Of a stretch of DNA of 50,251 nt, positions 22,831 through 25,680 are shown one piece after another (the stretch's first letter is position 1; each line of letters starts with the position of its first letter). Below the pieces are notes generated by a model that worked only from the letters and a program-made list of their open reading frames with translations, was not told the origin of the DNA and searched no databases. The position numbers and the translations under genes are program-made. Source of the stretch: a virus; the IMG/VR virus record IMGVR_UViG_3300027777_000053, positions 1 to 50,251 of that record; one strand, 5' to 3'.

Positions 22831-25680
22831 ATGACCAAACCCTTCAAACAAATAGTCACGATTGACTACGAGACGCGATGGTCCAAAACGGACTACACGC
22901 TATCTAAGATGACCACCGAGGAGTACATCCGCGACCCAAGGTTCAAAGCTTTCGGCGCTTGCCTGCATGAGTACGGATCGGACGAACCCCCACGCTGGTA
23001 CAACGGCGAAGATCTGCATGACGCGCTCATGCAGTACGACTGGACCCAGACAGCAATCCTTGCGCACAACGCGCAGTTCGACGTATCAATCCTTGAGTGG
23101 AAGTACGACTGTCATCCGTGTTTTATTCTGGACACGCTCAGCATGGCCCGCGCACTGCGCGGCACCGAGGCAGGAAATTCACTCGCAACACTAGCTCAGG
23201 AATTTGATCTGCCGCCCAAGGGCAACGCGGTACACAACACAGACGGACTAGAAGAACTAACGCCTGAGATCGAGGCAGAGCTAGCCGAGTACTGTGCGCA
23301 TGATGTGCTGCTGTGCGAAGAAATATTTCACCGGCTATCCCAAGGCTATCCCGCTAAAGAACTGCGCCTGATTGATCTGACGCTGAAGATGTACACACAG
23401 CCGCGCTTAATTCTCGACGGCACGATGCTGACCAAGGCTATCGAGGAGGAGCGCACACAGCGCGAAGCACTGCTAACCAATCTCGGTATCACAGACGCTG
23501 ATCTGGCATCGAACCCTAAGTTTGCCCAGCTACTCGAGGCTGTTGGCGTACCCGCGCCTAAAAAGATCAGCAAGACCACGGGTGAAGAGACGCTAGCACT
23601 GGCCAAGAACGACGCCATGTTCCAAGCGATCATGAACGGCGAGAACGAAGCAGCCGCGCTGCTCTGCGAAGCCCGACTGAAAGTGAAGAGTACGACCGAG
23701 CGCACCCGTGCGCAGCGGTTTCTAGACATTAGTAAGCGGGGTGCATTACCTGTACCGCTGAGCTATTACGGGGCCACTACGGGGCGGTGGACTGCAAGCA
23801 AGGGCAGTGCGATCAACATGCAGAACCTAAAGCGTGGGAGTTTCCTACGCAAGGCGATACTAGCGCCGATGGGCCACACGATAGTAGTAGGTGACCTCTC
23901 CCAGATCGAGCCGCGCGTGCTCGCTTGGCTCTCAGATTACGAAGACATGCTGGACATCTTTCGTTCAGGCGCAGACCCATACGCAGCGTTCGGTGCGCAG
24001 ATGTTCAACATCCCGGGAATGACTAAAGAAAGCCATCCAGAATTAAGGCAGTCAGCAAAGTCTGCTTTGTTGGGCTGTTTTGGTCCGGACACTTCGGTCT
24101 TGACGAATCGCGGGTGGGTGCCTATAGTAAGGGTACAGGCTACGGATACGGTCTGGGATGGAGAGGAGTGGGTATGTCATCAGGGAGTAGTACCGCAGGG
24201 CGAGAAGGAGGTGATAACGGCGCTGGGGATCAGCGCAACTTCGGACCACGGAATTCTGACGGAACATGGATGGGCGGAGTGGTGCGCGGTCCTAGCAAAC
24301 CCTTCCCTTTTGAAGTCGGCGCTGTCATTGGCGAACTCACCTGCATGGGGTGGGAACGCCGCCCCAAAGGACCGGAATGGCAAAACAAACATGCTTACCA
24401 ACCCCGAATGCGCTGTAGTTGTGGGTGGGAAGGGTTTGTTGATCGCACCAATCTTAGGGGCGGGAGAACTAGACGCTGCAACGATTGCGCTAAAAGAAAA
24501 TCAACGGCAACAAGAATGCTTGCTGCGGGGTATCAAGCCATTTGCCCAGACCGCGACCATCGCGAACGGCTCCTTGACAGGATTAGCGCAATCATTATCC
24601 GCTGTACCAACCCAAATAGCTCGGTCTATCCAGACTATGGTGGGCGCGGCATTACGGTATATGCGCCGTGGATTGCAGATCGTGTCGAGTTTCTTCGATA
24701 CCTTGTATCCCTTGATGGCTGGGATGTCCCCGAGTTACAGCTTGATCGGACAGACAACAGCAAAGGCTACGAACCCGGCAACCTTCGGTTTGTTACGCGC
24801 AGCGTCAACATGTCCAACAAGCGGCGCTTATCTGCGAGAGGGTTTGAAGAACTCAAGCGGCGCATCACTGCTCTTGAAGCAGAGAATGCAGACCTACGAC
24901 ATCGCCTTCGCAGGGCCGAGGAATCGCTACACAATCCTGACTGACGCAGGCCCGATCATCGTGCACAACTGTGGATACGGCCTCGGGTGGGCATCGTTCG
25001 CATCCCAGCTAATGGTGGGGTTCCTCGGAGCGCCGCCGATACGGTATCAAGCAAATTTTGCCAAGCAGCTAGGGGTCAACAAGGCGCTGGCTAGAAAATT
25101 CTTTGAGTGGCGCGAGACCGAGGCTCGCCTGCTGGACATTCCGCACACCTGCACGATTGAAGAGTTAGCTATTCATGCGGTTGCCGCCAAGCAGATCATT
25201 GACATCTACAGACAGACAGCCTACCCAGTGGTGGGCTTCTGGGCGCTGTGCACGAAGCTGTTGGTGGACTCGTTGGTGGAGGGCCGGGAGCATACGCACA
25301 AGTGCCTGACGTTTAGGTTCGAGGAGATCGAGCTGCCCAACGGCATGAAGATCCGCTACCCCAACCTGCGCAAAGACGAAGACGGCAACTGGGTGTACGG
25401 CAAGGATGCAACGAAGCTTTACGCAGGGAAAATCACCAACAACATCACCCAAGCTCTGGCGCGGATCGTGATGACAGACGGCATGCTGCGCGTATCTAAA
25501 AGATATCCAGTGGTGGGGACTGTGCATGATGAATTGATCGCGCTAGCGCCCGAGAATGAAGCGCAGGAAGCACTCGACTGGGTGCTGGAGCAGATGACCA
25601 TGGAGCCGTCCTACATGCCGGGGATACCTCTGGCTGCTGACGGCGGTACGAGTTTACGTTATGGGGATGCCAAGCAATGA
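22831..25680 (+). CDS. Family A DNA polymerase with intein
   Basis: The 949-residue precursor would give about 651 residues after removal of the intein (416-713). The 3'-5' exonuclease domain has ExoI IDYET (Asp12, Glu14), ExoII HNAQFD and ExoIII YCAHD. Polymerase motif A is GDLSQIEPR (354-362, Asp355); motif B is Arg406-x3-Lys410 ... Tyr716, split by the intein; motif C is VHDEL (His899, Asp900, Glu901). The residue equal to E. coli Phe762 is Leu414, a phage variant linked by others to slower, more accurate synthesis and temperate or less virulent life styles. It replicates the phage genome. It overlaps the following nuclease gene by 4 bp. Confidence 0.95.
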   Translation: MTKPFKQIVTIDYETRWSKTDYTLSKMTTEEYIRDPRFKAFGACLHEYGSDEPPRWYNGEDLHDALMQYDWTQTAILAHNAQFDVSILEWKYDCHPCFILDTLSMARALRGTEAGNSLATLAQEFDLPPKGNAVHNTDGLEELTPEIEAELAEYCAHDVLLCEEIFHRLSQGYPAKELRLIDLTLKMYTQPRLILDGTMLTKAIEEERTQREALLTNLGITDADLASNPKFAQLLEAVGVPAPKKISKTTGEETLALAKNDAMFQAIMNGENEAAALLCEARLKVKSTTERTRAQRFLDISKRGALPVPLSYYGATTGRWTASKGSAINMQNLKRGSFLRKAILAPMGHTIVVGDLSQIEPRVLAWLSDYEDMLDIFRSGADPYAAFGAQMFNIPGMTKESHPELRQSAKSALLGCFGPDTSVLTNRGWVPIVRVQATDTVWDGEEWVCHQGVVPQGEKEVITALGISATSDHGILTEHGWAEWCAVLANPSLLKSALSLANSPAWGGNAAPKDRNGKTNMLTNPECAVVVGGKGLLIAPILGAGELDAATIALKENQRQQECLLRGIKPFAQTATIANGSLTGLAQSLSAVPTQIARSIQTMVGAALRYMRRGLQIVSSFFDTLYPLMAGMSPSYSLIGQTTAKATNPATFGLLRAASTCPTSGAYLREGLKNSSGASLLLKQRMQTYDIAFAGPRNRYTILTDAGPIIVHNCGYGLGWASFASQLMVGFLGAPPIRYQANFAKQLGVNKALARKFFEWRETEARLLDIPHTCTIEELAIHAVAAKQIIDIYRQTAYPVVGFWALCTKLLVDSLVEGREHTHKCLTFRFEEIELPNGMKIRYPNLRKDEDGNWVYGKDATKLYAGKITNNITQALARIVMTDGMLRVSKRYPVVGTVHDELIALAPENEAQEALDWVLEQMTMEPSYMPGIPLAADGGTSLRYGDAKQ
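24076..24969 (+). other. Class 1 intein in DNA polymerase motif B
   Basis: 298 codons. Splicing residues are all present: Cys1 (CFGPDTSVL, block A), Thr470-x2-His473 (block B, SATSDHGILTEHGW), block F YDIAFAGPRNRYTILTDAG and the end IIVHN with penultimate His712 and Asn713, followed by Cys714 as +1 residue. Removal joins KSALLG to CGYGLG and restores the O-helix. Between blocks B and F the polymerase frame has no endonuclease motif; it is an open but featureless sequence because that DNA codes an HNH nuclease in another frame. Confidence 0.92.
24174..24944 (+). CDS. HNH homing endonuclease nested out of frame in the intein
   Basis: 256 residues in a frame different from the polymerase. ATG 24174 has AGAGGAG five bases upstream; a GTG at 24114 would extend it by 20 residues with no such site. 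A zinc ribbon (Cys81-x-Cys83 ... Cys102-x2-Cys105) precedes an HNH-type core: DRISAIIIRCTNPNSSVYPD, YGGRGITVYAPWI (155-167), LDRTDNSKGYEPGNLRFVTR (190-209) and SVNMSNKRR. The end is a coiled-coil-like helix (FEELKRRITALEAENADLRH). This is the usual core of free-standing phage HNH endonucleases. It overlaps intein block B at its start and block F at its end. The site cleaved would be the intein-free polymerase gene (inference). Confidence 0.88.
   Translation: MSSGSSTAGREGGDNGAGDQRNFGPRNSDGTWMGGVVRGPSKPFPFEVGAVIGELTCMGWERRPKGPEWQNKHAYQPRMRCSCGWEGFVDRTNLRGGRTRRCNDCAKRKSTATRMLAAGYQAICPDRDHRERLLDRISAIIIRCTNPNSSVYPDYGGRGITVYAPWIADRVEFLRYLVSLDGWDVPELQLDRTDNSKGYEPGNLRFVTRSVNMSNKRRLSARGFEELKRRITALEAENADLRHRLRRAEESLHNPD

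Follow-up and report, generated by a model that had tools for sequence, protein, structure and literature searches.

The family-A DNA polymerase gene of the phage studied here most probably (at a rough probability of 0.86) harbors a mobile intein in motif B, the homing endonuclease of which represents a nested, separate gene and not a domain of the intein. The window, i.e., the whole stretch of 50,251 nucleotides analyzed (IMG/VR record IMGVR_UViG_3300027777_000053, positions 1 to 50,251), also contains the tailed-phage genes for terminase, portal, helicase, and primase. Its polymerase ORF (22831–25680) encodes 949 amino acids, is uninterrupted by stops, and specifies a family-A DNA polymerase. 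The intein (24076–24969, 298 amino acids) separates RQSAKSALLG from CGYG within motif B; its parts are compiled in Table 1.

Table 1. Features of the polymerase gene, the intein, and the nested HNH gene (positions in the window)
Feature	Position	Strand	Characteristics
N-extein, family-A DNA polymerase	22831..24075	+	ends ...RQSAKSALLG (motif B / O-helix); empty-site relatives gapless there
Intein N-terminal splicing domain, residues 1-90, blocks A and B	24076..24345	+	Cys1, TSDH; pLDDT about 95 for residues 1-80, intein-frame dN/dS 0.29 in block N
HNH Shine-Dalgarno AGAGGAG	24162..24168	+	within intein codons for D-G-E-E-W
HNH endonuclease gene	24174..24944	+	-1 frame relative to polymerase; 256 amino acids plus stop; phrog_374 match
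Intein middle, residues 91-263, polymerase frame	24346..24864	+	HNH gene read out of frame
HNH zinc ribbon, residues 81-105	24414..24488	+	CxC ... CxxC, Cys invariant
HNH catalytic core, residues 152-217	24627..24824	+	YGGRGI ... LDRxDN..GYEPGNLRF...N..NKR
Intein C-terminal splicing domain, blocks F and G	24865..24969	+	YDIAFAGPRNRYTILT..GPIIVHN
Polymerase C-extein	24970..25680	+	first residue is the +1 nucleophile Cys (CGYGLGW)

Intein and Polymerase Reading Frame

A preceding sequence-only reading had proposed that the gene holds a complete class 1 intein, that the polymerase frame stays open across the HNH gene, and that this frame encodes no nuclease. These proposals were confirmed. The class 1 signatures, i.e., Cys1, TSDH as the TxxH of block B, the HN of block G, and Cys+1, are all present in the polymerase frame, and residues C1, T55, H58, H297, and N298 were found to be invariant in 28 aligned alleles. 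The ORF passes through the HNH region without interruption, and the intein middle features no detectable domain, low model confidence, and weak constraint; the window intein thus differs from inteins whose polypeptide itself includes an in-frame endonuclease domain.

In the AlphaFold model of the intein, residues 1–90 and 264–298 were predicted confidently (pLDDT about 95 for residues 1–80), and residues 91–263 obtained pLDDT values below 50 and are predicted to be disordered. The modeled splicing halves adopt the Hint fold, matching the Npu DnaE intein over 116 residues (Z 15.1, rmsd 2.4). As the middle, when translated in the polymerase frame, shows weak constraint and predicted disorder, it is regarded as a tolerated linker and not as a second designed protein. 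On the sequence level, the intein matched the PHROG model phrog_93 (E 4e-15). This model is labeled as an endonuclease and matched the intein in its splicing frame; the label may stem from this family.

Nested HNH Gene

As was also proposed, an HNH protein with a zinc ribbon is encoded in another frame, and its own Shine-Dalgarno sequence and start codon fall within the N-terminal splicing half (ATG at 24174, AGAGGAG 5 nt upstream). Separate searches with the intein and the HNH protein, recommended earlier as a check, yielded PHROG matches for both as well as relatives among viral contigs, the HNH protein matching phrog_374 (E 1e-30) and phrog_3377 (E 1e-19). Because neither the intein nor the HNH protein was recognized in the Pfam search, a nuclease gene appears to have been overlooked in many phage polymerase genes, including those of common Salmonella phages.

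The zinc-ribbon cysteines and the core residues are invariant across alleles of 36–89% identity. The core carries Asp-Arg in place of the canonical Asp-His, as is also the case in free-standing relatives. The HNH model reached a pLDDT of 82 and is confident from about residue 41 onwards; the structure search returned PacI (Z 5.2), a weak match amid unrelated entries with similar scores, and searching the PDB with either the sequence or the profile of the HNH protein yielded chance matches only. The enzyme is presumed to be catalytically competent because its core is conserved, while its activity and target are assumed, given the Asp-Arg in the core and the weak structural match to PacI.

Distribution among Phages and Prophages

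Searches of viral contigs identified 58 loci with the intein query and 27 with the HNH query, from which 56 distinct alleles were delimited. After further searches, the pooled set comprised 112 alleles, 78 of them belonging to the class with the HNH gene in the -1 frame, as in the window, and 17 to each of two classes (P1 and P2) with the HNH gene in the +1 frame. Based on these sequences, about a hundred distinct polymerase inteins of phages and prophages, those of well-studied Salmonella phages included, contain a predicted out-of-frame HNH gene, with selection acting on both frames.

Matches covering 80% or more of the intein frame were obtained in 161 phage records, mostly Jerseyvirus-type Salmonella phages (e.g., SETP3 and vB_SenS-Ent1). 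A nested HNH gene in the -1 frame was confirmed in vB_SenS-Ent1, EBPR siphovirus 2, the Pseudomonas phages MR14 and vB_PsS_LDT325, Vibrio phage 97.13, and the Dhillonviruses SO-1 and Pubbukkers. P1 was found in Streptococcus and Gardnerella phages and in Allobaculum (site AELA|CGYGG), and P2 in APSE-1, Caulobacter phage GB2A, and contigs, where it occupies other polymerase sites, e.g., GGKL|CENxxQ, and encodes an HNH protein of another subfamily.

The -1 class and P1 each formed a clade (support 98/97 and 100/98, respectively), and a single clade of all nested HNH proteins was not rejected by the AU test (p 0.67). Multiple origins may apply, because the three clades use two alternate frames at several polymerase sites and because each clade has a start signal of its own, either within the N-terminal splicing domain or adjacent to it. 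On balance, we lean slightly towards regarding the arrangement as an undescribed, widespread mobile-intein architecture, in which an autonomous homing endonuclease gene overprints the loop of a mini-intein and which may have arisen more than once.

Several individual loci deviated from the general scheme. Two inteins (L011:2388-3479 and L012:2888-3979) are 364 residues long, with about 70 extra residues, and feature a second partial match to the N-terminal part of the HNH protein, as if it had been partly duplicated. The HNH protein of a Taishania pollutisoli scaffold (L173, Bacteroidota assembly) hardly differs from the one encoded by Jerseyvirus Ent1, the scaffold probably being a contaminating phage contig. 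In Salmonella phage SS3e (L086, NC_006940), the polymerase is annotated as two genes around the intein and the HNH gene as a separate ORF; the break in the polymerase is probably due to a sequencing frameshift. Two further loci (L052:701-4425 and L055:725-4437) contain a second, upstream polymerase intein (RWGG|C ... HN|S) distributed over two ORFs in different frames. Its halves are bridged by another HNH ORF, an arrangement reminiscent of fractured genes that contain split inteins, and a contiguous mini-intein resides at the same site in L172.

Start Signal of the HNH Gene

The start signal of the HNH gene is embedded in the conserved intein peptide WDGEEWVC, in which GAG GAG provides the Shine-Dalgarno sequence and GTATGY, encoding Val-Cys, the start codon. 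This valine is encoded by GTA in 40 of the 40 full-length alleles possessing it, as compared to 22% GTA among the valine codons of the exteins. The sole GTC allele is L077, a mini-intein of 137 residues lacking the HNH gene. In alleles without the cysteine, the start is mostly located two codons upstream, in the context xxATGG. Altogether, an ATG was found at one of the two conserved places in 70 of the 78 alleles of the -1 class; the other eight have none at either position and must start elsewhere. In P1, an ATG is located at intein nt 146 in 15 of 17 alleles, mostly after GAGGT or GGAGGT.

Two Open Frames in the Same DNA

Within the set of 56 alleles, the polymerase frame is open in every full-length allele, as was demanded by the delimiting procedure. 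The HNH (-1) frame is open for at least 723 nt in all full-length alleles except L052, and the remaining third frame is never open past about 90 codons. In the pooled set, both frames are open in 111 of the 112 alleles, a count that is partly built in, since the later HNH-query sets were chosen partly for nesting, and that refers to related alleles. For this reason, the argument from the open HNH frame leans mainly on the alleles recovered with the intein query.

Recoding experiments in silico were in line with these counts. When the middle of the window allele was recoded synonymously for the HNH protein, the intein frame was open in 0 of 2000 trials, and when it was recoded for the intein protein, the HNH frame was open in about 1% of trials. 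Across the alleles tested, synonymous HNH recoding closed the intein frame in 97–100% of trials, and the reverse recoding closed the HNH frame in 93–100%. The double open frame exceeds chance.

A sequencing or assembly frameshift was ruled out as the cause of the frame relation. The window allele is independently present, with 100% identity, in IMGVR_UViG_3300009154_002760, and the same relation recurs in 78 distinct alleles of the -1 class from independent assemblies and isolates, which argues against an assembly error. Two observations had been named beforehand as speaking against the nested gene, namely, relatives with the HNH domain in frame with the intein and relatives with a broken HNH frame beside an intact intein. 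The former was not seen among the relatives examined, and the latter was restricted to L052 and three deletion-type mini-inteins.

Selection in the Two Frames

The comparison of substitution rates in both frames among relatives, which had also been recommended, was carried out with an overlap-aware count of changes, each classified as synonymous or not per frame, on independent allele pairs (n=33 pairs for the -1 class). Both frames turned out to be constrained, in complementary regions. In the splicing blocks of the -1 class, dN/dS amounted to 0.23–0.30 for the intein frame (0.29 for block N) and to 0.58–0.91 for the HNH frame. In the middle, comprising about 170 residues, the values were 0.21–0.28 for the HNH frame and 0.56–0.75 for the intein frame. 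For the middle of the P1 and P2 inteins, the main measure indicated neutrality of the intein frame (1.2–1.4) and conservation of the HNH frame (0.18–0.33). Constraint is thus complementary, acting on the intein frame in the splicing blocks and on the HNH frame in the middle.

In alleles of the -1 class, the fastest-evolving base occupies position 2 of the intein codon, whereas it occupies position 1 in those of the +1 classes, corresponding in each case to the wobble position of the HNH codon. Since the fast position shifts with the class, providing an internal control, the substitution pattern tracks the HNH frame and not the intein frame.

Proposed Mobility and Mechanism

Four empty alleles (L090–L093) were found, in which the junction SALLG^CGYG is gapless and which share 86–91% nucleotide identity over the polymerase. 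Because relatives this close (up to 91% identity) possess an empty site, the intein is considered to be mobile. Mini-inteins with HNH remnants or none (L077, L078, L080, and L361 from a Ruminococcus phage) look like a decay stage of the homing cycle.

A plausible course of events can be outlined from these data. Translation in the polymerase frame would yield a precursor, whose splicing halves would fold as a mini-intein around an unstructured, out-of-frame loop; the intein would then excise itself and restore the polymerase. Other ribosomes would initiate at the internal Shine-Dalgarno sequence and ATG and produce the free HNH protein with its zinc ribbon, which could cut intein-less polymerase alleles of co-infecting phages, with the intein subsequently being copied in. 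Most likely, the HNH gene was a free-standing homing gene that invaded a mini-intein at its loop, and the intein frame across it would be preserved mainly because any stop codon there would abolish the polymerase. Protein splicing, translation of the HNH gene, DNA cleavage, and homing are all predicted here from sequence features. The earlier proposal that two products, one presumably spliced and one free, originate from the same DNA agrees with the sequence, the substitutions, the start codon, and the structure models, and splicing and homing would accordingly be uncoupled at the protein level.

Alternative Explanations

The free state of the nuclease would be called into question by programmed -1 ribosomal frameshifting in the N-terminal half of the intein, which would generate a fusion of the N-extein and the intein start with the HNH protein. 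The -1 frame of the HNH gene in the window class and a slippery-like C CCA AAG at intein nt 288 fit this idea, but the slippery site lies within a stretch missing from close relatives, and the +1 classes would require the opposite shift. Moreover, several alleles have an HNH-frame stop immediately before the ATG (the frame opening at nt 90 and the ATG lying at nt 93), and the ATG itself is maintained through the choice among synonymous codons, its loss being confined to the HNH-less allele. Frameshifting is, therefore, regarded as quite unlikely. Even less credence is given to the possibility that the intein alone matters, with the HNH frame being either a remnant in decay or an ORF open by chance: the stop in L052 and the loss of most of the HNH gene from L077, L078, and L080 with intact inteins would suit it, but the HNH frame is open in nearly all alleles, evolves in the middle with dN/dS values of 0.2–0.3, and retains an invariant zinc ribbon and core, making this explanation highly improbable.

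A nested HNH gene is common in phage introns, and the corresponding insert in SO-1 (gp38/gp39) carries the annotation 'type I self-splicing intron', so that the insert could be taken for a group I intron that contains an HNH gene. However, all alleles keep the reading frame through the insert, whose ends are C1 and HN|C, selection on the splicing blocks acts at the protein level, and the modeled structure shows an intein fold. No match to a group I intron model of Rfam was obtained for the inserts of the window, L359, L358, L085, L353, and L360. An intron can practically be dismissed, and the insert is best described as an intein carrying a separate endonuclease gene.

Comparison with Known Systems

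With full-length inteins such as PI-SceI, the window element shares splicing halves of the same fold, a conserved essential motif as the insertion site, and the existence of empty alleles; in those inteins, however, the endonuclease is an in-frame domain, whereas here it is a separate out-of-frame gene. The position of the endonuclease is the usual distinction between inteins and group I introns. Introns encoding I-HmuI or I-TevI likewise are splicing elements that hold an independently translated homing endonuclease gene, but the window element would be removed at the protein level, and no intron RNA was found. An intein adopting the intron solution offers a direct view of the endonuclease invasion of mini-inteins, and splicing and homing could be mutated independently. 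In addition, an overlap of 500 nt, with one frame being little more than stop-free, represents a natural calibration case for overlapping-gene tests. Fractured genes in which a free-standing endonuclease ORF lies between the halves of a split intein were reportedly described by Dassa and others in 2009. They likewise combine an intein with a separate endonuclease gene, but in that arrangement, the host gene is in two pieces, whereas the host gene in the window is one continuous ORF.

Among annotated phages, APSE-1 (P45/P46) and SO-1 (gp38/gp39) possess a polymerase intein with an out-of-frame nested HNH ORF, annotated as two genes. APSE-1 differs from the window in the +1 frame, the site, and the HNH subfamily; SO-1 belongs to the same -1 class but is labeled as a type I intron. 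Both records list the nested ORF without recognizing the arrangement. The insert of Sodalis phage SO-1 (L359, GQ502199) is an intein, with no intron RNA detected.

The sequence-only reading knew of no described example. With regard to inteins this still holds, as no description of an intein with an out-of-frame endonuclease was found in the literature searched, although coverage was partial and priority is uncertain. As a broader statement it needs qualification, given that the arrangement is widespread, occurs in both alternate frames, and has a counterpart published in 2025, the closest case described so far among those found. The ShiLan domain of mycobacteriophage DNA methylases is a stop-free insertion in the host frame with an HNH gene in another frame, which shows a disjunct distribution, starts with GTG without a detectable Shine-Dalgarno sequence, and is thought to remain in the methylase (Arsenault, Gosselin, Gogarten 2025, PMC11855218). 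The window element resembles ShiLan in the out-of-frame HNH gene within a stop-free insertion and in its disjunct distribution. ShiLan, however, has no intein splicing domains, whereas the window element is a complete class 1 intein around the HNH gene, and in place of the GTG without a detectable Shine-Dalgarno sequence, the window class features a conserved Shine-Dalgarno sequence plus ATG.
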